DNA from: Roseomonas sp. CECT 9278
Lineage (GTDB): Bacteria > Pseudomonadota > Alphaproteobacteria > Acetobacterales > Acetobacteraceae
Assembly (NCBI RefSeq): GCF_918698155.1
Contig: NZ_CAKKLX010000007.1
Span: forward strand, 62,001-126,000
Direction: 5' to 3'
DNA length: 64,000 nucleotides
Shown here in pieces: positions 17,062-51,908 of this stretch. The notes under the pieces are model-generated. The model made no database searches and had not been told where the DNA came from. It saw only the letters and a list, made by a program, of their open reading frames with translations. The position numbers were made by a program, and so were the translations under genes. Each line of letters opens with the position of its first letter. Positions within the stretch are counted from its first letter, which is position 1.

Positions 17062-17381
17062 CAGATCAGCACCCCGCCGCCGAACTGGAAGAAGGACAGG
17101 AAGAAGCTCGACGCCGCGAAGGCGATCGAGATCCCGAAGACGATCTGCACCAGCCGTCGGAAGCCGCCCGAGGTGTCCCCGAAGGCCAGCGTCAGGCCCG
17201 TGACGATGATGATGATCACCGCGATGATCTTGGCGACCGGCCCCTCGATGGATTCCAGCACCTGCTGCAGCGGCTGCTCCCAGGGCATGTTGGAGCCGGC
17301 GGCGCGGGCGGGCGCCGTGAGCGCGATGCACAGCGCGAAGGTGGCCGCGCCGGCGAGGCGCGTGCGCAGCGTGGGCGTCAT
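17061..17381 (-). CDS. trbC: TrbC, VirB2-like prepilin
   Basis: 106 aa: signal sequence (about residues 1-27, ending APARA), then two hydrophobic helices (about 48-67 and 82-103). Major pilin precursor; in RP4 this type is matured by the TraF peptidase, whose homologue is at 29593-30123. Start overlaps the trbB stop by 4 nt. Confidence 0.9.
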   Translation of the reverse strand: MTPTLRTRLAGAATFALCIALTAPARAAGSNMPWEQPLQQVLESIEGPVAKIIAVIIIIVTGLTLAFGDTSGGFRRLVQIVFGISIAFAASSFFLSFFQFGGGVLI

Positions 17382-18346
17382 AGGGTGTCTCCTGTGGGGG
17401 TGAGGTCGTAGTCGCCGGTCGTGGTCAGGCCGCGGACCTGGGCGAGCTCGGCAAGGCGGCGGTCTGCACCGCGGCCGGCGAGCACGGCGATGACGTCGAC
17501 CGTTTCAGCGATCAGGGCGCGCGGGACGGTGACGACAGCTTCCTGGATCAGCTGCTCGAGGCGGCGCAGCGCGCCGAGGGCGGAGCCGGCGTGGATGGTG
17601 CCGATGCCGCCGGGATGGCCGGTGCCCCAGGCCTTGAGCAGGTCGAGCGCCTCGGCGCCGCGCACCTCGCCGATGGGGATACGGTCGGGGCGCAGGCGCA
17701 GCGCGCGGCGGACGAGCTCCGACAGCGAGACGACGCCGTCCTTGGTGCGCAGCGCAACCAGGTTCGGGGCGCGGCACTGGAGCTCGCGCGTGTCCTCGAT
17801 CAGCACGACGCGACCGCCCTCGCGCGCAACCTCGGCGAGCAGGGCGTTGGTCAGCGTGGTCTTGCCGGTGGAGGTGCCGCCGGCCACCAGGATGTTGCGG
17901 CGTTCGGCAACGGCGATGCGCAGGGAGGCGGCCTGCCCGGCGGTCATGATGCCCGCAGCGACGTAGTGCTCCAGCGTGAACACGGCGACGGCGGGCTTGC
18001 GGATCGCGAAGGCCGGGGCCGCGACGACAGGCGGCAGCAGACCCTCGAACCGCTCACCGGTCTCGGGCAACTCTGCCGATACGCAGGGGCGGTCCGCATG
18101 CACCTCGGCGCCGACGTGGTGAGCGACGAGGCGGATGATGCGCTCGCCGTCAGCGAAGGATAGACAGCGGCCGGTATCGGCGAGGCCTTCCGCGAGACGG
18201 TCGATCCAGAGACGGCCGTCGGGGTTCAGCATCACCTCGACGACGGCTGGGTCCTCGAGCCACGCTGCGATGCCCGGGCCGAAGGCAGTGCGGAGCATCC
18301 GCGCGCCACGTGCGGTCGTCTCGGCCTTGAGTGGATGCAGCGACAT
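17378..18346 (-). CDS. trbB: TrbB, VirB11-like secretion ATPase
   Basis: 322 aa hexameric ATPase of the conjugation machine. N-terminal domain (about residues 1-130), then RecA-like core with Walker [10 protein letters not shown] (Lys162), Asp box [10 protein letters not shown], Walker B-like region and His box [14 protein letters not shown]. First gene of the trb operon; a nested hairpin precedes the ATG at 18346. Confidence 0.94.
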
Positions 18347-18349: not shown

Positions 18350-18395
18350 GTCCCCGTTGTGGTGCCGCGGCGAGGACGCCGCAGCGAGCGGGGAC
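18350..18395 (-). promoter_or_regulatory. Nested hairpin covering the trbB ribosome-binding region
   Basis: Outer arms GTCCCCG (18350-18356) and CGGGGAC (18389-18395) are perfect complements; an inner stem GCGGCG (18367-18372) and CGCCGC (18377-18382) closes on AGGA. In the trbB mRNA the 3' outer arm reads CGGGGAC and ends 3 nt before the start codon region, so it includes the only Shine-Dalgarno-like G run. Folding would hide that site. No U tract follows, so it is not a classic terminator. Confidence 0.55.
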
Positions 18396-18528
18396 GATTA
18401 GAGAGCGGCTGTTCGGGGCGGGTTCAACAACACAGAGGTTTCGTAGTGGGACGGCGCGGAAAGACAGGCGTCGTGGTGGGGCTGATCCCGGCCGAAGCAC
18501 ACGCCGTGGTCTTAAGCGCGTTTCGGTT

Positions 18529-20043
18529 TCAATCGATGACGAAAGAGGGTTGATACGTCTTCGTACCTTGTCGGTCGAAGTCGAACTCGTAGATGATGGC
18601 CGGGCCTACCGCCTGGTGGTGCTGGCCGAGGAAGAACAGCAGCGCGTTGGGGCAGGCGGCAAAGATGTGCGCGAGGCGGTCCGGATTGTTGCCCCGCGTC
18701 GCACGCACCTCACGGGCGATCAGGTCGGCGATGGCAGCGGCATGCGCGCCGCCCGCCACGGCCTGGCCGGACGGGCCCGTCGGAGGTCGAAAGTTCAGCA
18801 TTGCTCCCCAGTCAAGCCCCGCCCCCTGCGCAAATCGCAGCATCTCCGGGGCGACATCATGGGTCAGGCCGACGCCGACGAGGATGCCGGCCCCCGGACC
18901 ACAGCTGTCCGCGTCCACCTCCAACGAAGGCCCGCTCTTGCCGTCGTCGGCGCGCCATACGCGCGAGCCACCAGCTCTTCCCTTCTGCACCAGTTCCACG
19001 TCAACGCCGGACTTCACGTGGAGCACGGCGCCCGCGATAAACGCGATGGAGGCGTGCGCGTCGAGAATGAGGCGCAGCCGGGGTGAGCGGCGCACCGCGT
19101 CGCGCAGGAACTCCTCGACGCGAGGGCGGATGTTGCGCTGCCAGTCCTGTCCTTCCTGGAGGTAGCGCTGGCGGAAAAGATCGGTGAGCAAAAGCGTATT
19201 GTCGGGGGCTGCGCCGGAGACATCGGCTGCGGGGCCGAGGAAAGTGCGGATCGCTACCGGCAGGAAAGCATCCGCGACAGGTGCGGGCGCTACGATCAGG
19301 CGCTCCTCGCCACAGATGCGATCGAGCGAGGCCCGCGTGAGCCCATTCAATCCACGCGCCGTAAGCTGCCGGATGAGCTCATCGTAGCGGAAATCCGATG
19401 CTTCGGCGCTGCACGTCGCAAGCCCGACGGAGCGGGCGCGCTCGTTCACGGCATCCCGCATTTGTTCAAGAGAAGGTTGGCTGTGCAGGATACGAAAGCC
19501 TTCCAGCATCCCTCGCAGTGCGTCATCCGAATCAAGCGCGAGGTGCTCCCGCCACAGCGTACGGACTCTGCCCATCCGGCTCCGCTTGCCAGTGCCGTCG
19601 AAGAGCCGGTCCAGAAGCAGCGTGTGGTCATTCTGGGAGATCAAATCCCAAAGTGCATCCTCCCTCTCGATGCCCGACACTGTGATGAGGGAGAATCGTG
19701 AGCCGGCGGGGGCGTTACATCGCGCCGCGCGGAGTCGCTGCAGCAGCGAGACACGCTCCGCGCCGATGAAGCCTGGGTCCACAAGGTCAGCGGAGCCGAA
19801 CGGCTTGCCGGCAGCGACATGCCACTTAACCTGCTGGTAGTCCGCCGGGACGCGCGTGGGGCCCGAGCCTGGGATGGGGGGATCATAGCGCACGACCACG
19901 TCGTCGAAGGCCCGCGGCGCGGCGGCCTCGAATGTTACCTCCGTGACGCAAGATTCCCGCGCGCGCAGGTTCAGCGCGTTCAGCCAGAACACTCGAGCCT
20001 GGTAGTTGTTCCCCTGCCAGGGTGCGACGACCGCATTTGCCAT
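18529..20043 (-). CDS. cap4: CBASS effector Cap4: DUF4297-type nuclease plus SAVED domain
   Basis: 504 aa, last gene of the CBASS operon. The N-terminal nuclease domain (about residues 1-200) has the PD-(D/E)xK pattern: Glu39, FDD (47-48) and QVK (71-73). The C-terminal SAVED domain (about 310-504) has an LILDAHASIAFIAGAVLH segment and the ending CPNALLFFLGQHHQAVGP typical of SAVED. Family members degrade double-stranded DNA after SAVED binds a cyclic oligonucleotide made by the CD-NTase, killing or arresting the infected cell. Fifty nt separate it from the CD-NTase gene. Domain identity is by recognition, not by search. Confidence 0.85.
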   Translation of the reverse strand: MANAVVAPWQGNNYQARVFWLNALNLRARESCVTEVTFEAAAPRAFDDVVVRYDPPIPGSGPTRVPADYQQVKWHVAAGKPFGSADLVDPGFIGAERVSLLQRLRAARCNAPAGSRFSLITVSGIEREDALWDLISQNDHTLLLDRLFDGTGKRSRMGRVRTLWREHLALDSDDALRGMLEGFRILHSQPSLEQMRDAVNERARSVGLATCSAEASDFRYDELIRQLTARGLNGLTRASLDRICGEERLIVAPAPVADAFLPVAIRTFLGPAADVSGAAPDNTLLLTDLFRQRYLQEGQDWQRNIRPRVEEFLRDAVRRSPRLRLILDAHASIAFIAGAVLHVKSGVDVELVQKGRAGGSRVWRADDGKSGPSLEVDADSCGPGAGILVGVGLTHDVAPEMLRFAQGAGLDWGAMLNFRPPTGPSGQAVAGGAHAAAIADLIAREVRATRGNNPDRLAHIFAACPNALLFFLGQHHQAVGPAIIYEFDFDRQGTKTYQPSFVID

Positions 20044-20093
20044 TGTGGGCTTTCCTCAGCGCCGCCCTAAGGCCGCAACATGGGCAGGTACCG

Positions 20094-20993
20094 TCATGAC
20101 AGCGGGAACTTTGGACCGAACAGGGCGCGCCAAGCCCTGAGCGCATCGCCGTTGCGGTTCTGGCGGGCGAGATGGATCGCGAGCGATGCCTCGCGGTTGG
20201 CAGCAAGGAGTAGAGACCGGGCGCGCTGCTTCTCCGCGGCAGCCATGCTGTCGCTTACCGGCGGGCCGAGGCCGGCAGGGTCAGGCCAGATGTCGAAGAT
20301 CCGGTCGGAAAGCGTGGCGAAAAGCGCCTGGATCTCCCGGTCGAACTGCCCGCACCAGCCGCCATGCAGGCACTCCAACGCCATGACCTCGATCAGGAAA
20401 GACGGCTTGATGGGCTTCTCGCCGTGCCTCGCGTTGTTGTTCCAGTACTTCATCATCCGGACCAGGCCCTTCCACTCGCCGTCGTATGCCTGATGAGCCA
20501 CGGTGGCCTTGTCCGCGTGCACCTTCGGATTGGTCTTGATCCACCTGCCGGTCACGGCGTCAGGAATTTCGTAGTCTGCGCCAGCCGCAAAGGCCGGAAC
20601 TGCATCCACGCTGACGACGCGGTAGTCGGTGTTATCGTCCGCGTCGGCCACGACGCCGAAATCGATGTTGACGGAGCGGGACTGCTTCCGGAGCGCCTTA
20701 GCCGCGTACTTCTCAAGCAGGCGCGCGTGGAAGTCGTCGACCACCACGGACGGAGCTTTCTCCCGGTACGTCCGCTCTGACGATCCCAGGACGAAGAAGA
20801 TGTCGATGTCCTTGAGCGGCTTGGTCTTCGTCCAACGTCGGTAGGATCCCGTGAGGAAGTCGCTATCGACAGCGAACTTGGTCCGCAGGAAATCCCGCAC
20901 CTCGTTGTGGCGAGCCGCCGCATTGGCCTGTTCGCGGTCGTTCAGCTCAAGGCGGCTCTTGAATTTCCGGAACGCCTCGTCGACGGTCAGCAT
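20094..20993 (-). CDS. CBASS CD-NTase (cGAS/DncV-like cyclic oligonucleotide synthase)
   Basis: 299 aa. The nucleotidyltransferase signature is complete: GS at 49-50 ([10 protein letters not shown]), metal ligands D62 and D64 (KDIDIF), and third acid D111 (VNIDFG). A helical C-terminal domain follows. It would make a cyclic oligonucleotide on phage infection. Neighbouring HORMA and TRIP13 genes define type III CBASS, where HORMA binding activates the enzyme; these are usually clade C or D CD-NTases making cyclic trinucleotides, but product and clade cannot be assigned by eye. ATG 20993 overlaps the HORMA stop. Confidence 0.87.
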
Positions 20994-21499
20994 CAGAGCC
21001 TCCTCCAGTACGCCGCGCTGGCCCCGAGCCCGTGGTGCTCGATGGTCCCGCCGAGTGATTGCCGGACCATGCCGGCGGTGGACCGGAGGGTTGTGTCCGA
21101 CCAGCCGTCCACGGCCTCGGCTCCAGGGCTGTTCTGCACCACGATGCGGTAGTCGGCGTCGCCCGGCCAGAGGCCGGCCTTGCGCACCGCCAGCCTTATC
21201 TGGTCGGTGTCTACCCAGAAGTGGCCGTCGCCGCCGGTCCATCCGTAGACGACGTCGATGTCCCAACGTCCTAGCGGAGTACTGCTGCCTGGCCTGAACA
21301 CTTCAAGGACGATACGCTCGAGGTGCTCAGAGGCGATCCAGCACCGCAGCCCGCGTGAGAGCACCTGCCAGTCGTCGGTGAGTTTCGCCGGATCGAGCCC
21401 GCTGAGGACAATGATATCCTTCAGGCTCTTGAGCATGTTCTCGGCGACGTAGGTCACCGAGTTTGTGCGAGAATAGGCGGAGACGACGACAGCGCTCAT
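20993..21499 (-). CDS. cap7: CBASS HORMA-domain protein (Cap7-type, bacHORMA_1-like)
   Basis: 168 aa, single HORMA domain. It shows the start of bacterial family 1 proteins ([17 protein letters not shown], Leu-rich helix), the WDIDVVYGW strand and the C-terminal safety-belt region ([19 protein letters not shown]). In type III CBASS the HORMA protein senses a phage-derived or partner peptide, closes, and binds and switches on the CD-NTase. It overlaps genes on both sides by 4 nt. Confidence 0.82.
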
Positions 21500-21981
21500 C
21501 GGCCGAGGAAGCCCTTCATGTCGAGCGTGAGAGGGATGGCGACCGATGCAGTCGCAGTGCCGGCCCGCTCGTCGGCGGCGGGGGACGAGCCCGGACCCCG
21601 CGCAGTCACGCGGGCACTGTGCCGCGCCAGGGCGCGCTGCACCCAGGCGAGGTCGTCCTGCCCACAGGGAAGGGACACCCGCCAGTCACCCTTCAGCGGG
21701 TCGTAGCCAAGGGGTCCCTCGTTCGCATCGGAACCGTCGATGGCGTCGTCGTCGAACAGGCAATAGATCCGGGTGCGCGGGCCTTCGCAGGTGACGACGA
21801 TCGGTTCGTCGCGCGCGGCCTGGTCGGAGATGATGCTCGCCGCAGTGCCGCTGACAGCGAGGAGCTCGCGGCGTGCCTCCCCGACGGCGCCTTGCGTGAG
21901 CAGGTCGACGATCGCGGCCCAAGTACCGTGGGCATCGCGGTGCGGTGTCGCGCGGAAGATCCGGCGAATGACGGTCGTCAT
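21496..21981 (-). CDS. Second CBASS HORMA-like protein (Cap8/HORMA2-type)
   Basis: 161 aa. Operon position (between TRIP13 and the first HORMA gene) and length fit the two-HORMA subclass of type III CBASS, in which one HORMA protein carries a closure peptide for the other. The N-terminus (VIRRIFRATPHRDAHGTWAA) and a strand IVVTCEGPRTRIYCLFDDDA are noticeable; the C-terminal 40 residues look flexible. Recognition as HORMA is weaker than for the neighbour. Overlaps both neighbours by 4 nt. Confidence 0.65.
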   Translation of the reverse strand: MTTVIRRIFRATPHRDAHGTWAAIVDLLTQGAVGEARRELLAVSGTAASIISDQAARDEPIVVTCEGPRTRIYCLFDDDAIDGSDANEGPLGYDPLKGDWRVSLPCGQDDLAWVQRALARHSARVTARGPGSSPAADERAGTATASVAIPLTLDMKGFLGR

Positions 21982-22895
21982 GCCTTTCCTCCAGCGGCCA
22001 GACGGGCCTTCCTGGCCGCCTCGGCGGCACCGTGGATGTCGGCGAGGGTCACCTTGCCCGGGTCCATTGCTGTTTCCGGGCTGCTGGCCAGCGCATTGCC
22101 CACGGCCTTGCGGATGGCGCGGCCGTCGAGGCCAACGCATGCGGCGACGGCCGCGTCAAATCCCTCGGCGCCTACGAGCCTGCCGATCGTCGGGTAGGTT
22201 TGGCCGAGGCCCAGCACGCAGTCACCAAGGATGCGTCGGCAGCCCTCGATGTCCGGCAGTGGGACTTCAATCACGAGGTCGCAGCGCGAGGTGAAGGCCT
22301 CGTCCAACGCCTGAGGGAAGTTGCTTGTCGCGACGAACAAAAGGTTCGGATTGCTCTCGGCCAGCAAGTCGAGCTGGACAAGCACGGCATCGGTTGCGCG
22401 GTGCACGTCGATCGGATTCGCGTCCATGCTGAGCCGAGACCGATCGACCGCAAGGGTTTCGACCTCGTCCAGCAGAACCACTGTCGGCGCGCTGCCCGCC
22501 ACAGACCTGAGTGCTTCTGAGAAAAGGTCGGACACGGCACGCTGGGTCTTGCCGAGGGCCGAATTGGCGAGCTGGTGGGGGTCGACTTCGACTAGCCTGA
22601 AGCCATTGCTCTTGAACGATCTGGCGACACGGTCGGCGAGTCCAAGGGCGAGCGAGGTCTTGCCGGTCCCTGGGGGGCCGACGAGCAGGATCACGCCGTG
22701 CAGCGGCAGGACCGTGCGGGGCACCTGCGCTCGGAGGGTGAAATTCAGGACGGCCTGGGACAGCAGCTGTTCCTTCTGCCCAGCGCCCACGTGGATCGAA
22801 TCCCACAGGAGGGCGAGCTGCGGGTCGGGAAGCGCCCGAATGCGATGGATCCCCTTAGGGAGGCCGTCACGAAGATTGGTCGTCGAGTCGAGCAT
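21978..22895 (-). CDS. cap6: TRIP13/Pch2-like AAA+ ATPase (Cap6)
   Basis: 305 aa, first gene of the CBASS operon. Walker A GPPGTGKT (73-80), Walker B VVLLDEVE (Asp143-Glu144), sensor 1 FVATSNFP, arginine finger region SRCD and sensor 2 LDGRAIRK are all present. In type III CBASS this ATPase opens HORMA proteins and resets or limits the alarm. The ATG at 22895 faces a 222-bp divergent region shared with capH. Confidence 0.88.
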   Translation of the reverse strand: MLDSTTNLRDGLPKGIHRIRALPDPQLALLWDSIHVGAGQKEQLLSQAVLNFTLRAQVPRTVLPLHGVILLVGPPGTGKTSLALGLADRVARSFKSNGFRLVEVDPHQLANSALGKTQRAVSDLFSEALRSVAGSAPTVVLLDEVETLAVDRSRLSMDANPIDVHRATDAVLVQLDLLAESNPNLLFVATSNFPQALDEAFTSRCDLVIEVPLPDIEGCRRILGDCVLGLGQTYPTIGRLVGAEGFDAAVAACVGLDGRAIRKAVGNALASSPETAMDPGKVTLADIHGAAEAARKARLAAGGKA

Positions 22896-23117
22896 GCACC
22901 TCTTCCCCTACGGCACCGGACCAACCCCTGCTCCGCTCTCGGGACAGCCAAGCCGACGCTCAGCCTCCATAGATGCGCCAATCCCGCCGATGGGCTTGAC
23001 GCCGGAATCGTGAACTGATTCGATGCGTTTCACGTGTTAAGCACTTCGTAGCCAAAGAGTGTCTCGTATGTCAAACACTTCGTTCTGCGCGAGACGGAGT
23101 GCGTGGGAGGAGGTCAG
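22896..23117. promoter_or_regulatory. Divergent control region between CBASS operon and capH-capP
   Basis: 222 bp holding both promoters. A direct repeat with 10 of 11 bases equal, AAGCACTTCGT (23039-23049) and AAACACTTCGT (23073-23083), lies 34 bp apart and close to capH; the first copy overlaps a near-palindrome GTGTTAAGCAC (23034-23044). These are candidate CapH operators. A strong Shine-Dalgarno (GGAGGAGG) ends 7 nt or so before the capH ATG at 23118. Confidence 0.5.
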
Positions 23118-23462
23118 ATGGACCACGCCGGCTTCGGATTGAGGCTCGCCGCCAAGCGAGGCGCGATCGGCGTGCGGGCCGCTGCGCGAGATGCTGGTGT
23201 CAGCCCGGCGACGCTGTCCCGCATCGAAAACGGCCACGTGCCCGACATTGAGACCTTCGAAAGGCTTTGCCGCTGGATGGGGGCCGATCCTGCGGAATTC
23301 CTCGACGGGCCGGCGCAGGAGGCCGTGGGCACAGTCCAGTTCAAGAAGCTGGACGCGGTCTCTCCAGCGACGGCGGCGGCCCTCGGCGAGCTCGTCATGG
23401 CTGTGTTCGAGATGGTTCGGTCCGAGGCGCAAGAAGGTGGAGCAGCTGGGGAGGCCGCGTGA
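23118..23462 (+). CDS. capH: CapH-like XRE-family repressor of CBASS
   Basis: 114 aa. An XRE-type HTH fills about residues 5-62 (VRAAARDAGVSPATLSRIENG) and a helical C-terminal segment follows. It is encoded divergently from the CBASS operon and overlaps a metallopeptidase gene, the CapH-CapP arrangement in which CapH represses CBASS until CapP cleaves it after DNA damage. The start ATG 23118 is chosen because of its strong GGAGG; an upstream GTG (23103) would hide it. Confidence 0.8.
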   Translation: MDHAGFGLRLAAKRGAIGVRAAARDAGVSPATLSRIENGHVPDIETFERLCRWMGADPAEFLDGPAQEAVGTVQFKKLDAVSPATAAALGELVMAVFEMVRSEAQEGGAAGEAA

Positions 23463-24031
23463 CCACCTTCCGGCGCGGCTTCAAGTCCTGGTGCGAGACG
23501 ACGGCCCTCCAGTTTCGGACGGCGTTAGGCCTGAAGGCACCTGACCCTCTCCCGGCAGAGCGGCTCGCCGCGCATATCGGGCTGCGGGTCGTCGATATCG
23601 GGCTGATCCCCGGTCTTCGCGCGGAAGCACTTCAGCAGCTTACCGTCGCCGACCCAACCAGTTGGTCGGCGGTGATGCTGACCCTGGGAGACAGCAAGGT
23701 CGTCGTTGTTAATCCCTCCCACTCGGACGGTCGTCAGTCGAACGACCTGATGCACGAATGCGCGCACGTGGTGCTGAACCATGCACCCTCCAAAGCGCTC
23801 CGCGCAGCGACGGGTGCGCTCATGCTCAGCGCCTACGACAAGCGGCAGGAGGCAGAAGCCGACTGGCTCGCTGCGGCTCTTCTGCTACCTCGTGCTGCAC
23901 TGCTCAGGATCGTGCAGAGCGGCGTTTCATCCGAAGAAGCTGCATGCCAGTATCGAACCAGTCAGGTTCTGCTGCGTATGCGCTTGAACCAGACTGGCGT
24001 GAATCTGCAGATGCGCCGTCGGGTGGCGTGA
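23459..24031 (+). CDS. capP: CapP-like ImmA/IrrE-family metallopeptidase
   Basis: 190 aa from GTG 23459 (GTGA overlap with capH). Zinc motif HECAH at 99-103 (LMHECAHVVLNH) and the third ligand region RQEAEADWLAAALLLP match ImmA/IrrE. By analogy with CapP it senses DNA damage, cuts the CapH repressor and releases CBASS expression. It converges on the copG-like gene, with 84 bp between them and no clear terminator. Confidence 0.8.
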   Translation: MTTFRRGFKSWCETTALQFRTALGLKAPDPLPAERLAAHIGLRVVDIGLIPGLRAEALQQLTVADPTSWSAVMLTLGDSKVVVVNPSHSDGRQSNDLMHECAHVVLNHAPSKALRAATGALMLSAYDKRQEAEADWLAAALLLPRAALLRIVQSGVSSEEAACQYRTSQVLLRMRLNQTGVNLQMRRRVA

Positions 24032-24115: not shown

Positions 24116-24565
24116 TCACGCGGGAGGCTTTTCTTCGGACGCGACTTCGTCGATGGCACGAGATGCTGATACATCAGTCGTTATCTCATCGGCGAGCATG
24201 CGGCCTTTCGCAAGCCGTCGAGCAAGAGCCTCGACGAATGCGTCGTAGCGCTCCTTTCCCTTCACCTGGGCGGCGGCCTGCATCGCGTTAGGTAGCGGCG
24301 GCGTCGCAGTTATCCAGAACCGGACGAATAGGGCTATTGCCTCGTTGCCAATGGTGACATGGCGCTCCAGCCGCTCGCTGGCGCGCGACAGGCGATCGAG
24401 CCGGCGTGCCAGGGCCGCCTCCAGCCGGTCGGGACCATCCGCCGAGAGGTAGCTCTCGAGTGCAGCCTCGACCACAACGGACTGACTCACACGCTTGCGT
24501 GCCGCGTATTCTGCGAGGCGGCGCGTCAGATCTGGGGCCAGCCGAAAGGTCACCTTGGTGCGCAT
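24116..24565 (-). CDS. Ribbon-helix-helix (CopG-like) protein upstream of traG
   Basis: 149 aa. The N-terminal 50 residues have the RHH pattern (KVTFRLAPDLTRRLAEYAARKRV, split here between residues 4 and 26), followed by a helical region. In this ICE type a CopG-like gene lies between traG and trbB; here CBASS separates it from trbB. It is 6 nt after traG and in the same direction. It may regulate the transfer genes or act as a relaxosome accessory; unproven. Confidence 0.75.
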   Translation of the reverse strand: MRTKVTFRLAPDLTRRLAEYAARKRVSQSVVVEAALESYLSADGPDRLEAALARRLDRLSRASERLERHVTIGNEAIALFVRFWITATPPLPNAMQAAAQVKGKERYDAFVEALARRLAKGRMLADEITTDVSASRAIDEVASEEKPPA

Positions 24566-24571: not shown

Positions 24572-26548
24572 TCAGAGGGCAATGCCGTCATTGGGGTCGA
24601 GCGCGGCTTGGCGAGCAACGCGACGCGCACGCGCGGCAAGGGCACGGGTGCGCGCGGTGTCGTCGTCCTGTTCGTCCTCCGCGAAGACGAACTCCCTCTC
24701 GAGCGGCGGTCCTGGCTCGGGCGCGATCTGCTCGTGCTCAGGCAGGGTCGGCTCCCGGCGGATGCCACCGTCGGCATCATCGCCCGCGCCGTTGGCTGAT
24801 GGTGCTGTCTCACGCGCTACAGGCTTCAGCACGCTCCAGTCATCAGGACGCGGCGCGCACGGCGCAGCCACCGCGGGATCCGGCGGCATCACCACGCGTG
24901 CACGAAGCTGCCGGTCCTCGTAGTAACGCGCCTTCCGCGCGCGGATCGGCGGGCAGCCCGACACCAGGACAATCTCGTCAGTGGGCGGCAGCTGCATCAC
25001 CTCGCCGGGCGTCAGCAGCGGCCGCGCCGTCTCCTGGCGGCTGACCATCAGATGTCCGAGCCAGGGCGATAGGCGGTGCCCTGCGTAGTTCCGGCTGTCG
25101 CGGATCTCGGTCGCCGTGCCGAGCGCATCGGAGACGCGCTTGGCCGTGCGCTCGTCATTCGTCGCGAAGGCGACGCGGACATGGCAGTTGTCGAGGATCG
25201 CGTTGTTCGGCCCGTACGCGCGCTCGATCTGGTTCAGCGACTGCGCGATCAGGAAGGACCGGATGCCGTAGCCCGCCATGAAGGCGAGCTGGCTCTCGAA
25301 GAAGTCGAGCCGTCCGAGGGCAGGAAACTCGTCAAGCATCAGGAGCAGCCGATGCCGTCGCCGTTCGTTCTCCAGCGCCTCGGTCAGGCGGCGGCCGATC
25401 TGGTTCAGCACGAGCCGCACCAGCGGCTTCGTGCGCACGATGTCGGAGGGTGGGACGACGAGGTAGAGCGTGACCGGCTCGCGCGCCTCGACCAGATCGG
25501 CGATCCGCCAGTCGCAGCGGCGCGTGACCTGCGCGACGACGGGATCGCGATAGAGACCGAGAAAGCTCATCGCGGTCGAGAGCACGCCGGATCGCTCATT
25601 GTCCGACTTGTTGAGCAGCTCGCGCGCCGCGGAGGCGACGACAGGGTGCGGTCGATCCCCGAGATGCGGCGTCGTCATCATGGCGGCCAGCGTCCGCTCG
25701 ATCGGACGGCGCGGATCGGAGAGGAAGCCCGCGACGCCGGCGAGGGTCTTGTCCTGCTCGGCGTAGAGGACGTGAAGGATGGCGCCCACCAGCAGGGAGT
25801 GGCTCGTCTTCTCCCAGTGGCTCCGTCGCTCCAACGCGCCTTCAGGATCGACCAGGATGTCGGCGATGTTCTGCACGTCGCGGACCTCGCTGTCGCCGCG
25901 GCGGACCTCGAGCAGCGGATTGTAGGCGGCGCTCGCCGGATTGGTGGGGTCGAACAGCAGCACCCGGCCAAAGCGCGCCCGCCAACCGGCGGTGAGGTGC
26001 CAGTTCTCGCCCTTGATGTCGTGGACGATCGCCGAGCCCGGCCAGGTCAGCAGCGTCGGCACGACGAGGCCCACGCCCTTGCCGGAGCGCGTCGGCGCGA
26101 AGCACAGCACGTGCTCCGGCCCGTCATGGCGGAGGTAGCGCTGGGCGAACCAGCCGAGCACGACCCCATCGGGGGCGAGCAAGCCGGTGTCCCGCACCTC
26201 ACGCTCTGTCGCCCAGCGGGCCGAGCCGTAGGTGGTCACGTCCCGCGCCTCGCGGGCGCGCCAGACCGACATGCCGATGGCGATGCCGATCGCCGCGAAG
26301 CCCCCGGCCGCGGCGATGACGGCGCCCTCGTAGAAGACCCGCGGCGCGTAGGCGTCGTACCAGTACCACCACAGGAAGAAGGCCGGCGGCGGGTAGACCG
26401 GCACGCCGGCCCAGACGTCCATCGGCTGGCCGAGCTGCGCCTGGTAGCCGAGGCGCCAGGCGACCCACTGCGTCGCGCCCCAGACCGCGGCAAGCACGAT
26501 CAGGAAGACAACCAGGACCTGGCCCCAGAGGATCTTCGTCGCGGTCAT
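24572..26548 (-). CDS. traG: TraG, VirD4-like type IV coupling protein
   Basis: 658 aa from ATG 26548. Two N-terminal membrane helices (about residues 8-30 and 70-95), then an ATPase with Walker A-like TRSGKGVG and Walker B LLLMLDEFPALGR. It delivers the relaxase-DNA complex to the Trb channel. The C-terminal 80 residues are acidic and Arg-rich. An in-frame extension upstream of 26548 has no family features and is ignored; 155 bp separate it from the relaxase gene. Confidence 0.93.
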   Translation of the reverse strand: MTATKILWGQVLVVFLIVLAAVWGATQWVAWRLGYQAQLGQPMDVWAGVPVYPPPAFFLWWYWYDAYAPRVFYEGAVIAAAGGFAAIGIAIGMSVWRAREARDVTTYGSARWATEREVRDTGLLAPDGVVLGWFAQRYLRHDGPEHVLCFAPTRSGKGVGLVVPTLLTWPGSAIVHDIKGENWHLTAGWRARFGRVLLFDPTNPASAAYNPLLEVRRGDSEVRDVQNIADILVDPEGALERRSHWEKTSHSLLVGAILHVLYAEQDKTLAGVAGFLSDPRRPIERTLAAMMTTPHLGDRPHPVVASAARELLNKSDNERSGVLSTAMSFLGLYRDPVVAQVTRRCDWRIADLVEAREPVTLYLVVPPSDIVRTKPLVRLVLNQIGRRLTEALENERRRHRLLLMLDEFPALGRLDFFESQLAFMAGYGIRSFLIAQSLNQIERAYGPNNAILDNCHVRVAFATNDERTAKRVSDALGTATEIRDSRNYAGHRLSPWLGHLMVSRQETARPLLTPGEVMQLPPTDEIVLVSGCPPIRARKARYYEDRQLRARVVMPPDPAVAAPCAPRPDDWSVLKPVARETAPSANGAGDDADGGIRREPTLPEHEQIAPEPGPPLEREFVFAEDEQDDDTARTRALAARARRVARQAALDPNDGIAL

Positions 26549-30123: not shown

Positions 30124-30584
30124 GCGTCGATCCTCCGCCGCATCAGCCAGGCGCGGTGGCGCTCGCGCGTGTAGGCGCGGGGCTGGTCGCCGGCAGCGAG
30201 GCGGTTCATCACGTGCCGCCAGTGGTCTGGACAGGCTTCCTCGGCTGCGACGCCCGCGCGTTCGACCGCGTCGATCGCGCGCAGCACCTCGTTGACCTTC
30301 GGCCAGTTGGACATTCGCAGCAGGATTTCCGCCCCCGGCTCCACAAAGCCGATCGTGCTGAATGCCTCGCCCGGGCCGACCGCGCGCAGGATGTCGATGC
30401 GGCTGACCACGGTGCCGTAGCCGTTGGATGCCCACCGCACGAAGGCGAACACCTCGCCCGCCGCGAAGGCGACGACGCGGCGCCGGCGGTCGAGGATCGT
30501 CTCCTCGGCGATCTGCCCGAAGCGGATCCAGCGCTCGATGCGCCCCTCGAGCCACAGCAACTCGACGCGGGTCAGCGGCGTCAT
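30120..30584 (-). CDS. DUF2840 protein, ICE backbone
   Basis: 154 aa, a conserved companion of repA and traF in alphaproteobacterial ICEs. The sequence has a WIRFG strand and a GEVFAFVRWASNGYGTVVSR core; no catalytic motif recognised. It overlaps repA and traF by 4 nt on each side. In related ICEs a parA gene often lies between repA and this gene; here none does. Confidence 0.8.
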   Translation of the reverse strand: MTPLTRVELLWLEGRIERWIRFGQIAEETILDRRRRVVAFAAGEVFAFVRWASNGYGTVVSRIDILRAVGPGEAFSTIGFVEPGAEILLRMSNWPKVNEVLRAIDAVERAGVAAEEACPDHWRHVMNRLAAGDQPRAYTRERHRAWLMRRRIDA

Positions 30585-31651
30585 GGCACCGCCCCCCGCT
30601 CCCCGTCCCGGTCGTGTTTTCCACCGACCGCGCTGGGCCTACCATCATTAGAATTAGACTCAATTAGAGTCTTTACGGGCCAGAATTCCGCTTGCGCTGC
30701 AACGGTTTGCGGGTGGTTCGTGCGCCTGATCTGCCGTGCCGGCTGCGCCTGATCTGCCGTGTCCCGTGCGCCTGATGTGCCGTGCGGTTCCACAGGGCTG
30801 CACAAGTTATCCACAACGCCGGGGAGGCGACCGCTCGGCATGATGTGGAGCACTTCGCCGCCCGCGACATCGCGACGGATGGCAAGGCGATAGCCGGGCA
30901 GGCTCTGGCGCGCGACGAGCCGGCGCAGGTCGAGCGCGAAGTCGGCGAAGCGCGCGAGGCTGCCGGACTTGGCGTGCAGGTGCCGGAACTCGAACGCCCA
31001 GCCGGAGGGCTGATGGCCCGCGTGCTTGCGCGCGACGCGGTAGAGCCAGCGCTCAATCCCGCCCGATAGGCGGAAGTAGGCCGGATCGATGGTCAGCAGC
31101 AGCTGTCGGTCGAGGACGCCGCGGTAGAACCAGTCCGGCAGCACGAACTCCATGCCGTCGGCGCGGCCGGAGGCGGTGATCCGCTCCTCCCATTCGTTAA
31201 TCCAGGAGAATTGCTGGCGCCGCCAGTGCGCGCCGTGGCGGATCGTGGTGCGGATGACGGTCGACTGGAGCCTGGCGAGCGCCGCCTTCAACAGCAGGTA
31301 CTGATGCTGCCCGGTGCCGCGCCCGATGGCGGTCAGCAGCTGGTGTGGCGCGAACCGCATGAAGCGGGAGGCGGCGAGGCCTCGATCAGCGGCCTCGACG
31401 ATCTGCGAGCCGGCCCAGATCAGCACGTCGGCGTCCCAGATGGTGGCCATGCCATGCTCGGGGACGGCATGGACCTGCACCTCGATGTCGCCGGCGCGGT
31501 AGAGGATCGGCGCAACGCGGCGGCCCTTCGCCAGCGAGAAGAACGGCCGCTCCATCAGGTCGCGCTGGTCGCGACGTGGTGGGCCGTCGTCCGGTAGGGC
31601 GTCGAAGGGACTGAGGCGCAGTCGTTCGCTGGGCGAGGTATCGCGGCGCAT
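30581..31651 (-). CDS. repA: RepA-like replication initiator (RPA family)
   Basis: 356 aa, replication initiator protein A family (PF10134): LSPFDALPDD start region, DADVLIWAGSQI, and a central winged-helix area. On ICEs such proteins may replicate the excised circle. The start is ATG 31651; ATG 31687 would overlap the upstream rdfS-like gene, and neither has a strong ribosome-binding site. The C-terminal 70 residues are polar and variable. Confidence 0.85.
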   Translation of the reverse strand: MRRDTSPSERLRLSPFDALPDDGPPRRDQRDLMERPFFSLAKGRRVAPILYRAGDIEVQVHAVPEHGMATIWDADVLIWAGSQIVEAADRGLAASRFMRFAPHQLLTAIGRGTGQHQYLLLKAALARLQSTVIRTTIRHGAHWRRQQFSWINEWEERITASGRADGMEFVLPDWFYRGVLDRQLLLTIDPAYFRLSGGIERWLYRVARKHAGHQPSGWAFEFRHLHAKSGSLARFADFALDLRRLVARQSLPGYRLAIRRDVAGGEVLHIMPSGRLPGVVDNLCSPVEPHGTSGARDTADQAQPARQIRRTNHPQTVAAQAEFWPVKTLIESNSNDGRPSAVGGKHDRDGERGAVP

Positions 31652-31664
31652 CGGCGGCGAGCAC

Positions 31665-31949
31665 TCAGCGGCGTGCCGCGCCGGCATAGGCCGGCGAGAT
31701 GGCCGCGTGACGCTTGGCGGGTAGCACTGTCTCGCCGGTGTCGTCGCTGGTCGATGCCTTGGTGCCGCGGTTCACCCAGGCCTGGAGGTCTGTCACCGCG
31801 TAGACGACGCGCCCGCCGAGCTTCGAGTAGCGCGGGCCCGTACCGTAGGTGCGGTGCTTCTCGAGGGTACGGCCGGACAAGCCGAGAAAGCGGGCGGCCT
31901 CCGGCGTGCGGAGATAACGCGGCGGCAGGCCGGCATTCGGGTCGGGCAT
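31665..31949 (-). CDS. RdfS/AlpA-like HTH protein, likely excisionase
   Basis: 94 aa with an excisionase-type winged HTH (TPEAARFLGLSGRTLEKHRT, then GGRVVYAVTDLQAWV). Start ATG 31949 preceded by GGAGG. It leads the operon repA, DUF2840, traF, transglycosylase, relaxase. In ICEMlSymR7A the recombination directionality factor RdfS has the same fold and likewise leads a traF-rlxS operon under control of FseA; an fseA-like gene is immediately upstream here. Function as RDF is inference. Confidence 0.75.
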   Translation of the reverse strand: MPDPNAGLPPRYLRTPEAARFLGLSGRTLEKHRTYGTGPRYSKLGGRVVYAVTDLQAWVNRGTKASTSDDTGETVLPAKRHAAISPAYAGAARR

Positions 31950-36074: not shown

Positions 36075-39000
36075 TCAGGGATCGCTCCCGCCCAAAAGAT
36101 CGCCCTGCGCCGCCACGCGTCGGCGGCCGCGCCGTGCGGCGGGCGCCTTCGTCGTGTCCGCCGCAACCGCGGCATGGAGCGCCGAGGCCGGCAGCGTGGG
36201 GCCGTTGCAGATGCGCTCCAGCAGGTCGGCCTGCGCGGCCTCCAGCGCGACGAGGCCGCCGAGCACGTTCAGCACGTTGAGCAGTTCGGCCGTGTATTCC
36301 GGCAGCCAACCGGGCGGCTGAATGTCGCCGAGCGGCGAGGGCTTGCGGCGGTCGCCGATGATCGGGCGCGAGCGGTCACGGCCGCGGTAGCTGAACCACT
36401 GCGTCAGCACCTGCTTGCCGGAGACTTCGTAGTCCCAGACTGCAGGCGAGACATTGTCCACATGGCCCTGGCCGACATGCAGCCGGCGCGTGGCTGCGTC
36501 GTGGCGGATCGTGTCGGGCATCGCAGCGGGGTCGGTCGGGATGGCGCCGTCTTCCGGGATGGTCGGGCGTTCGGCGGCGGGCAGGCGTGGCGCGCCGGCG
36601 GGACGGCCGTCGGACGCATCGACGAAGCGCTCGCCGAAACTGTGCAGCCAGATGACGCGGCGGCCGAGGCGTGCGGCCTCGGTGAACAGCCCGGAGTCGG
36701 TGGTGAGCGGGATTCGCAGGCCGGGCTGTACGAGGTCGGTCACGAAGCGGGTGACGTAGGCCGGGTGCGCGGCCACGGCTGCGATGTAGGCGAGGATGTC
36801 CGGCGCGGAGATGGGCGCGCCGAGCGCCGAGGAAAGCGCGGCAAGCACTGCGGCAGGGATGTTTGGCGTCGCCGCGGCGCTGTCGGCCCACAACGGAAAG
36901 GCGCGACCACCGAACGAGCCCTTGTAGTGGTGAAGGTCCGGAATGAGCGCGGAGAAGGTTACTGCCGGTCCGCCAGTCGGCGAGTGCTGCATCAGCGCAG
37001 TGAGGTAGACCTGCTTCTCCGAATGCATGCGCCAAATGGTCGGGTTCGGTTGGTTTAATAAGCGTGCGTCAGGAATGACCCATTGGCGATCGAAGGACCG
37101 GAAGCCGTAGTGGGCCGGCGCGACGACCGCGCCCTTATCCTTCGCTACGGGCAGTATGCGATGGGCGTGGCCTGCCAGGCCCTCCTCCACAGCCTTGCCT
37201 GAGTGCTTGTCGCCGAGCTGCTCGTTGCGGATGTGCGGGTGAAACAGCACTTCCTTCCGCTCCGAATCGCGCTCGGCAATCAGGCGCTTCCAGCGCTCTT
37301 CCAATGACCACCGATCTGGCGCGATCACCCAGGTGCGCCCTGGCATGACGCCTGAGCCATCGTAGGCGAATAGCGCATCGAGCGCCGGATAGGTCGCCCA
37401 TCCGCCCGTCGCGGCAGGCAGGAAGGCCGCGCGCTCCGCCTCCGGACAATCGATCCAGCCCTCGCCGTCGAGTGTCAGCTTCGCCAAGGCCTCGAATTTC
37501 TGCTCCCGCCGCCCGATCGGCAACGCGCAATACCGCACGCGGGCAGGTTTGCTCACATCCGTCTTGCCCGTGCGCGCCAACAGCACGATGCACACGGGCT
37601 GTTGCACGCCCTGGAAAATGCGCGAGGCGACGGCCGGCTGATGCCCCTCCGGCGAACAATCCACCACCCAAATCTCATCCGCCGTGCGACGCAGATCGGC
37701 GCGCATCGCCTGGAAACCCGGCCCGTTGAGAAACCCAGCCACGGTGATGAAGCACACGATACCGCGCCGGTCCGCCCGCGCCTGCGGCGCGGCGGCCGCA
37801 TCGCCGAACACCTTCCACGTCGCCCAGCGCCAGAAATAGATATAGAGGTTGCGCAGATGCTTCGAATGCGCACCAACGCCCCATTCCGGCGGCGGCATCC
37901 AACGCGCAAGCGGCGCGGCCCCCTTCGCATTCAAGCTGCCGGACTCGACCCATCCGCCGCGACCCTTCGCCTTTTCCTTGTAGGGCGGATTGCCGATGAC
38001 GACGGTGATCGGCTCGGCGCGTTTCACCTTGTTCGCCTCGCGTCGGGACTCAGCGAGCGGCTTCAGGATCTGCGGGATGTATTCCTCATCAGCATAGGGA
38101 TTGCCAAGCGTGTCGGTGACATAGAGGCGCAGATGCACGTCCGACGGCACCGTGCCCTTTATTTTGAGCAGGTCGGCGACCTCTGCCAGCAGGCGCAGCT
38201 GCGCTACGGCGAAGGGGCCGAACTGCAATTCGAAGCCGATGATGCGCTTCAGCGCGGCGCGGATGACGCCCGGCACGCTGCCGGCGCCGTCTGCGCGCGC
38301 AGTCTCCGCGATGCGTCGCAGGACGCCCAGCAGGTAGGTGCCGGTGCCGGCGGCCGGGTCCGCCAGCGTGACCTCGTTGGAGGCGAGCCCCTCCGGCTGT
38401 CCGAAGCGCGCCGGGTCCCGCAGCACATCATCCACCAGGCGCACCATCGCGGTGACCACCTCGGGCGGCGTGTAGTAGGAGCCGGTGAGCTTGCGCAGGT
38501 CGTTGTCGTAGGCCTCCAGGAAGTGCTCGTAGAAATACAGCCAGGCCTCGGAGTCGCCCTTGCCGATGGCCGCCCAATCCACAGCATCGAGCACGCGTGT
38601 GAGGGTGCCGAGCGAAGTCTTCAGCGCTTCCTGCCCATCGACATCGTCGGTCAGCACGCGGAAGGCGCCGCCGATCACCGTGTTGGTCTTGGCCAGCGCC
38701 TTCGCGACGCGGTCCAGGCCATCAGCGAGCACGATGCCCTGCGCGCGCGCCATCAGGAGGCCGAAGGTGACGGCCTGCGCGTAGCCGTCGGCGAAGTCTT
38801 CGTCACTGGCTTCGGGGAACAGCAGCCGGCGCCAGTCTTCGGCAAGGCCGCTCAGCGCCGGGACCTTCTGGTCGAGTTGTTCGGTGACCTCGTCGCGCAG
38901 CAGGCGGCACAGGCCGGCGCTGAGTGCTGCGAGCGCGCGCGCATTGGTGGGCGGGATCGGCTCCCAGCGCAGGAAGTCGCCGAACAGGCGGGTCAGCGCG

Positions 39001-39461
39001 TCGGGCGCGGTGAGCGCGGCACCGGCGGATTCCACGTCGCCGGACAGCCGCACGATCTCGCCCTGGAGGGCGCCGTCACGCCACAGCGAGAAGGCATTGC
39101 CGTCCGTGTAGATGAGGTTCGGCAGGGATTTGAGCTTGGTCCACTGGTCGCGGTCGTGCTCGTCCTTGAAGCGGCGCGGGTCGGCGCCCTTGCCGGGTGC
39201 CTTGACCTCGATGAAGCCGACGAGGGCGTTGCGGGCGCGGACGGCGTAGTCCGGTCGGGTCTTCAGGGAGGACAGCGTGGTTTCGCCGATCGCGACCACA
39301 TCGCCGGCCTTGAGCAGCAGGATGGCGGCGAGGTCGGCGATCAGCGTCTCGAGCGGCGCGCGGAGCTGGTCCTCCGGTGCGCCGACCGCTGCCTTGCCGG
39401 AGAGCTTTGCCTTGAGCGAGGCGCCGAAGCGCGACACCGCGGCGGAGAGAGAATCAGCCAT
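36075..39461 (-). CDS. Type ISP-like restriction-methylation enzyme (single chain, no helicase)
   Basis: 1128 aa from ATG 39461. The N-terminal PD-(D/E)xK nuclease (about residues 20-150) has RPDYAV and FIEVKAPG. The central N6-adenine methyltransferase has motif I LADPAAGTGTYLLG and motif IV VIGNPPYKEK. The C-terminal third matches type ISP specificity regions (VIWLHSFGERFVDA). No DEAD-box helicase is present between nuclease and methylase, unlike full LlaGI-type ISP enzymes, so it acts more like a type IIG protein. It would mark ICE DNA and cut unmodified incoming DNA. No separate S or R gene is nearby. Confidence 0.82.
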   Translation of the reverse strand: MADSLSAAVSRFGASLKAKLSGKAAVGAPEDQLRAPLETLIADLAAILLLKAGDVVAIGETTLSSLKTRPDYAVRARNALVGFIEVKAPGKGADPRRFKDEHDRDQWTKLKSLPNLIYTDGNAFSLWRDGALQGEIVRLSGDVESAGAALTAPDALTRLFGDFLRWEPIPPTNARALAALSAGLCRLLRDEVTEQLDQKVPALSGLAEDWRRLLFPEASDEDFADGYAQAVTFGLLMARAQGIVLADGLDRVAKALAKTNTVIGGAFRVLTDDVDGQEALKTSLGTLTRVLDAVDWAAIGKGDSEAWLYFYEHFLEAYDNDLRKLTGSYYTPPEVVTAMVRLVDDVLRDPARFGQPEGLASNEVTLADPAAGTGTYLLGVLRRIAETARADGAGSVPGVIRAALKRIIGFELQFGPFAVAQLRLLAEVADLLKIKGTVPSDVHLRLYVTDTLGNPYADEEYIPQILKPLAESRREANKVKRAEPITVVIGNPPYKEKAKGRGGWVESGSLNAKGAAPLARWMPPPEWGVGAHSKHLRNLYIYFWRWATWKVFGDAAAAPQARADRRGIVCFITVAGFLNGPGFQAMRADLRRTADEIWVVDCSPEGHQPAVASRIFQGVQQPVCIVLLARTGKTDVSKPARVRYCALPIGRREQKFEALAKLTLDGEGWIDCPEAERAAFLPAATGGWATYPALDALFAYDGSGVMPGRTWVIAPDRWSLEERWKRLIAERDSERKEVLFHPHIRNEQLGDKHSGKAVEEGLAGHAHRILPVAKDKGAVVAPAHYGFRSFDRQWVIPDARLLNQPNPTIWRMHSEKQVYLTALMQHSPTGGPAVTFSALIPDLHHYKGSFGGRAFPLWADSAAATPNIPAAVLAALSSALGAPISAPDILAYIAAVAAHPAYVTRFVTDLVQPGLRIPLTTDSGLFTEAARLGRRVIWLHSFGERFVDASDGRPAGAPRLPAAERPTIPEDGAIPTDPAAMPDTIRHDAATRRLHVGQGHVDNVSPAVWDYEVSGKQVLTQWFSYRGRDRSRPIIGDRRKPSPLGDIQPPGWLPEYTAELLNVLNVLGGLVALEAAQADLLERICNGPTLPASALHAAVAADTTKAPAARRGRRRVAAQGDLLGGSDP

Positions 39462-39596
39462 GGGTCGGTGCGAATCCGCTTCGGTGATCGTGTTCAACCA
39501 AAGGTTACAAAGCCGATCGCTGCGACGCCAGTCCACCTTGCCGGTGACGCGTTGAGGCTGGCGCCCCGCCCATCCAGGCGGGGCGCCGTTGGCCGT

Positions 39597-44246: not shown

Positions 44247-44767
44247 GGTGTCGTCCCAAGGCCCTGCATGATTGCGGCGGGGTCGGCTTGCGCCCCGAAC
44301 CAACGGCCGACCAGATCCGCCGCGCGGCGAATGTGGGTGGTCTCGTCCGTCGTTTTGGACGGCGACACGCCGAGGCGTAGCGGACGAGGTCCCGGGACGA
44401 TGCCGTCGCCGTCGAGCGTCACTGCGCCCAACTGCGCCAGAAAAAGCAGCGCCTCGCGCGTTACTGGCCTGAGCCGGAGGATGCGGTCTGGGAGGTCCAC
44501 AAGGCGGGGCGCGTTTATCGCGGTCCAAGTTCCGAAAGTCGCGTTCGCCCGCTTCGGCAGCAGGGCCCGTATGGCCGGGGGAAGGACAAGTGGCGGGACG
44601 AGGAACGCAAGGGGAAGCGGCAACGGACGCTCTCCCGACCGTCGGTAGCCTGTGACGACACGCGCCACGGTCTCCCCGACGAAGGCCGGGTTGAGGAGGG
44701 CTGCTTGCTCGCCTGGGCGCTCGCGCCAGGGGCGCTCCCAAGCGCTCCTCGACGCAGAATCAGGCAT
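44243..44767 (-). CDS. ABC-3C middle component
   Basis: 174 aa from ATG 44767. It starts with NPAFVGETVARVVTGY and has LPLPLAFLVPPLVLPPAIRA, the pattern of the small helical/winged middle components linking ATPase and effector. It overlaps both neighbours (8 nt and 4 nt). Family placement rests mainly on operon context and this N-terminal pattern. Confidence 0.75.
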   Translation of the reverse strand: MPDSASRSAWERPWRERPGEQAALLNPAFVGETVARVVTGYRRSGERPLPLPLAFLVPPLVLPPAIRALLPKRANATFGTWTAINAPRLVDLPDRILRLRPVTREALLFLAQLGAVTLDGDGIVPGPRPLRLGVSPSKTTDETTHIRRAADLVGRWFGAQADPAAIMQGLGTTP

Positions 44768-51377: not shown

Positions 51378-51867
51378 CGTCTGTGGGCCCAAGCTGCATC
51401 GCCGGCGGATAGAGCGTGGGCACCCGCTTCTGTCCGCTGCACCATGCGTCGATCATGTCCGCCCACTCCTGGAGCATGTGTCGACGCTGCGGCTCATACT
51501 CCGCCTTGTTGTAGACACCGCGCGATGATCGATTGTCCTCATGGGCAAGGCTTTTCTCGATCCAGTCGCTGTTGAAGCCGAGCTCGTTCAGCAACGTCGC
51601 GCCAGTGCGCCGCAGGTCGTGCACCGTGAAGGCGCCCAACGGCAGCCCGCTGGTCTTCGCACGCCCGACAACCGCGTAGATGACGCGATTGAAGGTCGCA
51701 CGGGACATCGGCTGGTCGGCCTCATAGCGAGAGGGCAACACATAGGGTGAATTGCCAGCGCAGGTTTTCAGCGCGACCATGATGTCGAGTGCCTGTCGCG
51801 CGAGATAGACGTTGTGCGCGCGCGAGCGCTTCATGCGCTCCTTCGGAATAGTCCAGACAGCGTTCTC
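51343..51867 (-). pseudogene. int: Tyrosine integrase, C-terminal part (separated by IS insertion)
   Basis: 174 codons starting ENAVWTIPKERMKRSRAHN, containing the catalytic box HDLRRTGAT and HEDNRSSRGVYNKAEY with the nucleophile Tyr. It joins in frame to the N-terminal part at 53834-54589 once the IS and one target copy are removed, giving a 426-aa P4-type integrase. An ATG at 51834 could start a fragment, but it would lack the first catalytic Arg. Confidence 0.9.
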
Positions 51868-51875
51868 AAAATCTA
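51868..51875. repeat. 8-bp target-site duplication, left copy
   Basis: AAAATCTA, identical to 53834-53841 on the other side of the IS1595-family element. Eight bp is the normal duplication for this family. Confidence 0.92.
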
Positions 51876-51908
51876 GGTGCCTATATACGTGTATGACCTT
51901 GCCGCACC

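Follow-up and report, generated by a model that had tools for sequence, protein, structure and literature searches.

A conjugative element of Roseomonas sp. CECT 9278 probably carries a two-HORMA defence core of NucC lineage with an exchanged Cap4 effector

Why does a block of conjugative-transfer genes hold, between trbB and a copG-like gene, an operon that resembles an antiphage defence system, and which effector, messenger and trigger would this system use? The question is raised by a 64,000-nucleotide stretch of Roseomonas sp. CECT 9278 (contig NZ_CAKKLX010000007.1, positions 62,001 to 126,000 of the forward strand), referred to below as the window. The original prediction, made from the letters of this DNA without database searches, had described a type III cyclic oligonucleotide-based antiphage signaling system (CBASS) with two HORMA proteins, Cap4 in place of NucC and CapH/CapP control, located at a cargo hotspot. 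Our analysis makes it probable that a conjugative element carries here, at a favoured insertion site for cargo, a complete two-HORMA type III CBASS, and that the signalling core of this CBASS, which belongs to the NucC lineage, has exchanged its effector for Cap4.

The trbB-copG interval contains all seven foreseen genes, each with an open frame; five lie on the minus and two on the plus strand (Table 1). The minus-strand operon runs in the order TRIP13, HORMA3, HORMA2, CD-NTase, Cap4 (22895-18529), with overlaps of 1-4 bases among its first four genes and a spacing of 50 bases before Cap4; the genes for a helix-turn-helix (HTH) protein and an M78 peptidase (23118-24031) diverge from it across a 222-base region. 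The TRIP13-like ATPase shows the Walker A sequence GPPGTGKT and the Walker B sequence VVLLDE. The profile searches proposed with the prediction returned both HORMA and SAVED matches: the two HORMA proteins matched PF18173 and 6P8R, or PDLC00881 and 6P8P (Pfam, searched to E 1, gave nothing for the HORMA3-type protein), and they are accompanied by TRIP13 (PDLC00915), the composition of two-HORMA type III. The CD-NTase carries GSY and DID motifs, scores above the 200-bit cut-off of NF041117 and adjoins an effector in which a PD-(D/E)xK-type nuclease is fused to SAVED (PF18145, PDLC00737), that is, Cap4. This effector aligns over its whole length (residues 1-502) to 7YIB, which, like 7YIA, we take to be Enterobacter cloacae Cap4 (EcCap4), with DD and QxK conserved. 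Its nuclease motifs read DDVVV and QVK; the QxK lysine is kept in the window protein, an alanine occupying that position in 7YIA, and the motif is retained in 115 of the 120 listed Cap4 homologs. Judged by gene content and motifs, the operon is an intact two-HORMA type III CBASS, as predicted. Passages of PMC9122588 already recognise the two-HORMA type as a CBASS class and name Cap4 and NucC among the effectors of CapW-associated CBASS.

Relatives of the core were sought in plasmid records and in genome samples. HORMA2 relatives occurred in 11 plasmid records, the operon regions of all of which were read, and the genome search with bacHORMA_2 gave matches in 2 of 150 genomes of the window's family, 4 of 385 in a class sample, 3 of 398 in a phylum sample (only the window's own genome being above the cut-off) and 6 of 297 from a second large family; the window's genome is common to the family, class and phylum samples. 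Reading by tblastn yielded 17 close-core operons, the window counted in, with CD-NTases 67-74% identical to the window's. Four operons with cores 29-45% identical (L097, L098, L128, L130) were classed as divergent two-HORMA operons; outside the close-core set also fell G323 (locus L114), which has HORMA2 and no other core gene, and G784 and G839, which lie below the family cut-off. The effector following the CD-NTase is NucC in 15 of the 17 close-core operons, or 14 distinct cases since the cores of L095 and L112 are identical, and Cap4 in two, the window and G948 (L126). In the four divergent operons Cap4 is of another kind, sharing 35-38% identity with that of the window. By sequence relatedness, the window core is a member of a lineage in which NucC is the usual effector. 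On a Pseudosulfitobacter plasmid (L089 1763-11600), one of the NucC operons is flanked by genes of another conjugation system, a type IV secretion ATPase on one side and the coupling protein on the other.

The origin of the effector was examined in a midpoint-rooted Cap4 tree with ultrafast bootstrap, comprising 14 of the 120 listed homologs and 20 loci. The window protein groups with homologs P0002-P0004 (support 100), and these join G948, G1019 and other homologs in one clade (94). Its sister (joint support 100) is a clade (97) formed by the Cap4s of type II operons from Enterobacter, Salmonella, Sphingomonas, G891 and G417, all five of which have Cap2 and Cap3 relatives. A separate clade (100) unites the Cap4s of type III operons with one HORMA protein and of the divergent two-HORMA ones. 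Because a NucC-lineage core thus carries a Cap4 from a clade near the type II Cap4s, the effector appears to have been exchanged. The clearest sign that it moves between cores is given by G1019, which combines a one-HORMA core with a window-type Cap4 (57%): this Cap4 falls together (100) with that of G948, despite the two-HORMA core of the latter. The core tree places G948 next to a Rhizobium NucC clade as its sister (83). Two independent exchanges, one in the window and one in G948, are favoured by these trees, a single shared exchange being possible.

If one core lineage feeds both NucC and this Cap4, then either the effector reads cAAA or the CD-NTase product has changed. Passages of a review (PMC10419184) give cAAA as the ligand of NucC, 2'3'3'-cAAA as that of AbCap4 and cAAG as that of EcCap4, and state that CBASS with HORMA2 and HORMA3 do not require double-stranded DNA. 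No CD-NTase residue is private to both Cap4-bearing close-core operons, whereas the window has 0 to 6 such private residues in common with each of the 14 others (L112 omitted as a duplicate of L095), and we therefore see no sign of a changed product. On balance we lean towards a Cap4 that would answer NucC's messenger, cAAA, rather than the cAAG of EcCap4.

Several points weigh against an exchange on a conserved core with a shared messenger. The type II Nostoc Cap4 attaches to the other type III Cap4 clade, so that Cap4 clade and CBASS type do not correspond one-to-one. The backbone of the core tree, in which the window stands apart, has weak support (35-49), and a constraint that unites the window with G948 carries a penalty of 29.8 log units, yet is not rejected by the approximately unbiased test (p 0.114). 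The evidence that NucC is the usual effector comes from 17 operons in plasmid records and genome samples, and the covariation test is a weak one, with only two Cap4 operons. Finally, the cAAG reported for EcCap4 in the passages of PMC10419184 speaks against cAAA as the common messenger.

We propose that the system would work as follows. HORMA2, closed on a ligand and modulated by HORMA3, would activate the CD-NTase, and TRIP13 would keep the enzyme off by reopening the HORMA protein. Upon phage infection the CD-NTase would make a cyclic trinucleotide; binding of this messenger by the SAVED half would cause Cap4 to oligomerise, and the nuclease half would then cut cell and phage DNA, resulting in abortive infection. 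The HTH/M78 pair most likely represses the operon and would de-repress it by cleavage of the HTH protein. With respect to HORMA3, the window protein (21496-21981) and those of related loci end in a conserved tail behind a variable linker, independently of the effector. This tail reads KGFLG in 12 of the 17 close-core operons and is a similar G-F/L-L/M tail in the remaining 5, the divergent operons having a different short tail; it is a candidate HORMA ligand or TRIP13 handle.

What would trigger the de-repression? In canonical CapH/CapP control, DNA damage generates single-stranded DNA (ssDNA), CapP cleaves CapH and the CBASS operon is de-repressed. The pair in the window has the expected HTH protein and HEXXH M78 peptidase and diverges from the first operon gene, and the predicted protease fold, computed with an alignment of the window protein and 72 of its 120 listed homologs, has CapP as its best structural match. 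To this extent the predicted CapH/CapP identity stands. The region between the pair and the operon contains two copies of a 15-nt direct repeat (23035-23049 and 23069-23083, 87% equal), which are candidate operators, though a two-copy family can be due to chance; no sigma-70 consensus was found in 22896..23117.

Beyond this, the identity is less secure. The window protease, 190 amino acids (aa) long, stops where relatives of 294-302 aa continue, and it has no C-terminal sensor-like domain; its 120 listed homologs are 118-207 aa long. In the structural comparison the alignment ended at residue 207 of the 278-residue chain of 7T5T, although the last aligned residues of two PprI chains were 263 and 275. 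PprI without its C-terminal domain keeps basal cleavage and loses ssDNA binding and stimulation. The trigger is therefore probably not the canonical one, and the predicted de-repression by DNA damage is doubtful. Moreover, the window protease matched the PADLOC capP model only weakly (7.5e-9) and the capH model did not match its HTH partner at E values up to 1, whereas the full-length pairs of L092, L126 and L006, used as positive controls, reached 8.2e-57 to 3.2e-68 for capP and 5.4e-27 to 3.1e-32 for capH.

The other close-core operons bear on the same question. A HTH/M78 module of some kind lies near the operon in 13 of the 17. Six have a long CapP-like protease with an HTH gene; L092 and L126 were assigned by model scan (capP positions 13-241 and 13-242 of 242, with nearly complete capH) and L090, L091, L096 and L139 by their similarity to L092. 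The L126 pair is that of G948, which has the same architecture as the window and matches both models over their whole length (capP 3.2e-68, capH 3.1e-32), in favour of the canonical pathway. Three have HTH-M78 fusions (L088, L089, L093) and four have short proteases (the window, L007, L138 and L113/L141); no module was found with seven queries in L094, L095, L112 and L140. Across 173 aa, the short proteases of L007, L138 and L113/L141 are mutually 82-95% identical, and their resemblance to the window's is confined to short local stretches; those of L007 and L138 match capP only up to positions 152 and 151. Because the HTH partners in L007 and L138 nevertheless match capH (8.2e-13 and 1.5e-12), a short protease does not by itself imply another pathway. 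As an observation in its own right, L007 (11428-12326) and L138 (9964-10835) document a family of 173-aa CapP-like proteases beside two-HORMA NucC operons, ending where the sensor-like domain would start. Taken together, canonical control of the window operon is possible, but we consider it doubtful.

These comparisons would imply that sensor-less proteases originated at least twice, in unrelated short families. This allows a joint reading, which we put forward tentatively and hold to be still less probable than canonical control: both effector and trigger may have been re-wired on a conserved core, the Cap4 clade reading cAAA and sensor-less proteases having replaced the ssDNA-gated CapP, so that the defence would be timed by another cue, which might be the element's transfer or arrival.

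Alternatively, the HTH/M78 pair could have no control over the CBASS operon and be an independent regulator or cargo of toxin-antitoxin type. In favour of this, short M78 proteases form a broad family (563 homologs at 1e-10), and PADLOC gave a single weak capP match. Yet HTH/M78 modules accompany most close-core operons, as described above, and the short protease apparently occurs alongside Cap4 or HORMA2 in three further homolog pairs, P0003/P0124, P0002/P0130 and P0242/P0126, a pairing deduced from contigs of matching length (9505, 95653 and 9676, respectively) rather than read from the gene context. This explanation is unlikely. Outside the close-core set, the pair of G1019 is 71-76% identical to that of an Indioceanicola CBASS, though the CBASS types differ (one-HORMA Cap4 versus patatin). 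That the window holds a decayed, non-functional CBASS is very improbable in view of its open frames and active-site motifs and of the recurrence of near-identical copies, the 96-98% clusters of Cap4, HORMA2 and the protease holding 18, 15 and 17 members.

The prediction placed the CBASS between trbB and copG/traG, and both flanks were located. The junction was compared in 85 loci, namely the best 80 copG-alignment loci of named genomes plus L002, L004, L006, L141 and the window (L003, covered by L006, was left outside the count). Both genes flanking the junction, trbB and copG, could be located in 64 of these; 42 junctions are empty, with gaps below 500 bases (130-175 bases in 39 of them), and 22, the window among them, hold cargo of 0.95-8.6 kb. 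Of the 21 loci without trbB in the stretch, which fall in neither class, 15 extend more than 9.9 kb to the right of copG and hence have larger cargo or are rearranged; 83 of the 103 open reading frames (ORFs) right of copG in loci without visible trbB were scanned. Beyond traG, the interval up to the relaxase could be read in 59 of the 85 loci, 36 of them empty and 23 with cargo; the 26 loci in which no relaxase was seen in the stretch fall in neither class. Scans of cargo ORFs (47 and 60 ORFs) returned defence, toxin-antitoxin, transport, resistance and metabolic families. The trbB-copG junction is thus a general cargo site, not limited to defence, and the hotspot foreseen in the prediction is borne out in this broader form. 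In L004 (1658-3082, Paracoccus), for instance, a FitA-like antitoxin, a partner resembling by eye a PIN toxin, and an ATPase occupy this junction. The alternative that the CBASS genes are conjugation backbone serving transfer, suggested by their location within the transfer block and by a strand shared with the trb and tra genes, is scarcely credible given that 21 junctions besides the window's hold other cargo, that most readable ones are empty and that the window CBASS genes have no tblastn match (1e-4) in the best 80 copG loci.

A conserved leader adjoins trbB at this site. A model built from 35 distinct sequences of 40 junctions, out of the 42 empty ones, was searched with nhmmer (E up to 1) and found the leader beside trbB in 21 of the 22 cargo loci, the miss being L078; the match was weak in L077 and L083 (E 0.014) and partial and 80 bases off in L082. 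Since the leader stays beside trbB, cargo would enter between the copG stop codon and the leader. The 22 loci do not represent 22 independent events, as several look like near-copies (L072/L073, L077/L083, L055/L057). In keeping with import, the GC content of the window cargo is 65.5%, versus 70.6-71.7% for the flanking transfer genes. In relatives the leader, lying ahead of trbB, spans about 130 bases with TTGTTG, TCTAATC and CCCCG/CGGGG blocks, and it is possibly a trb promoter or hairpin. Weak, partial second copies of the leader start were seen right after copG in L018 (10441-10523, E 0.008) and L016 (10440-10478, E 0.022); they are possibly insertion traces, direct repeats bracketing the cargo.

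Other cargo was observed in the window and in related elements. In the window, a type ISP restriction-methylation protein (36075-39536) and a DUF3732 protein (42312-44741) possibly represent more cargo of the same element, which also has a RepA-type replication initiator by Pfam (30581-31687) and a match to part of an integrase domain (51499-51882). In a plasmid of Indioceanicola profundi (L006 13250-17439), a CBASS with a patatin effector, a CD-NTase and an E2-like protein (1 of 60 members, attributed by position) occupies the traG-relaxase interval together with a divergent pair matching capH and capP, and in G469 (L141 7802-18303, L113) a two-HORMA NucC CBASS lies between relaxase and traG of a related element.

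Type III CBASS, Cap4, NucC and CapH/CapP are each known already; the exchange of the effector and the sensor-less protease appear to be new. A literature search at passage level, with the original HORMA, Cap4 and CapH/CapP papers outside it, found no description of either. A single core combined with either of two effectors, for which different ligands are reported (cAAA for NucC, cAAG for EcCap4), amounts to a natural experiment from which the messenger could be determined, and the sensor-less proteases bear on whether the C-terminal domain couples M78 regulators to DNA damage. The common insertion point, at which the trb leader is retained downstream of the cargo, shows how conjugative elements gain defence and other genes with their transfer operon unbroken. 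If the joint re-wiring of effector and trigger were true, the mobile host element would time the defence; if biochemistry does not bear these readings out, the locus is ordinary defence cargo.

Table 1. Genes and other features of the cargo and its flanks in the window
Feature	Position	Strand	Evidence and remarks
trbB, cargo flank	17378-18346	-	similar DNA annotated trbB in plasmids; tblastn in relatives
Conserved trb leader adjoining trbB, downstream of cargo	18351..18469	-	nhmmer E 1.8e-8
Cap4 effector, N-terminal nuclease and SAVED domain	18529..20043	-	PF18145 1.3e-32; PADLOC PDLC00737 1.7e-188; PDB 7YIB 415 bits
CD-NTase (CdnD-like), 1-base overlap with HORMA2	20094..20993	-	NF041117 317 bits; PDLC00809 6.3e-142; PDB 6P8U/6P82 489/487 bits
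HORMA2 (bacHORMA_2), 4-base overlap with HORMA3	20993..21499	-	PF18173 240 bits; PDB 6P8R 200 bits
HORMA3-type protein, 4-base overlap with TRIP13, conserved C-terminal tail	21496..21981	-	PDLC00881 5e-67; PDB 6P8P 193 bits
TRIP13-like AAA ATPase, operon gene 1	21978..22895	-	PDLC00915 1.5e-135; Pfam AAA 2.1e-22
Putative shared divergent promoter region	22896..23117		
HTH (XRE-type) regulator, divergent; alternative start GTG 23103	23118..23462	+	HTH_31 1.4e-9
Short M78 metallopeptidase, 190 aa, HECAH; predicted CapP/PprI fold without C-terminal domain	23459..24031	+	Peptidase_M78 1.3e-14
copG-like gene, other cargo flank	24116..24565	-	48-54% identical to junction gene of L002-L004
traG coupling protein; listed ORF to 26926, start 26548 by comparison with L004 TraG (658 aa)	24572..26548	-	similar DNA annotated TraG in plasmids

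How does the locus compare with known systems? Its closest structural counterparts are 6P82, 6P8R and 6P8P, which we take to be the CdnD-HORMA2-HORMA3 set of Pseudomonas aeruginosa ATCC 27853 and which reportedly stem from Ye et al. 2020. CD-NTase (489 bits), HORMA2 and HORMA3 all match this set over their full length, and the CD-NTase is, by eye, roughly three quarters identical; the effector of the P. aeruginosa system is presumably NucC, unlike the Cap4 of the window. The G948 operon shares the seven-gene architecture (TRIP13 69%, HORMA3 67%, HORMA2 54%, CD-NTase 74% and Cap4 56% identical). In contrast to the window, it has a 300-aa CapP with a capH-matching HTH protein, and its core groups with the Rhizobium NucC operons (83); the transfer genes of the window were not found in its 15 kb.

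The effectors of EcCap4-type type II systems resemble the window's in full-length nuclease plus SAVED composition, with 40-45% identity and in a neighbouring clade, but they stand beside Cap2, Cap3 and another CD-NTase (5/5 operons), and EcCap4 is reported with cAAG in the passages of PMC10419184. The regulator pair shares with CapH/CapP and PprI/DdrO the M78 fold with HEXXH, the HTH partner and the divergent position, and departs from both in its protease without C-terminal domain and in an HTH protein outside the capH model.

Accessory inserts in Tn4371 elements have long been known. Tn4371-like integrative and conjugative elements are defined by traG-trbBCDEJLFGI with RepA/ParA and by an integrase more than 70% similar to intTn4371. 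Passages of PMC2789088 place a variable region of Tn4371 before traR-traG and do not mention a trbB-copG junction. The element in the window is like the Tn4371-like elements of PMC2789088 and related alphaproteobacterial trb/traG elements, as far as its traG, trbB and RepA matches indicate, in having traG followed by trb genes, RepA and accessory cargo, and differs from them by a copG-like gene between traG and trbB.

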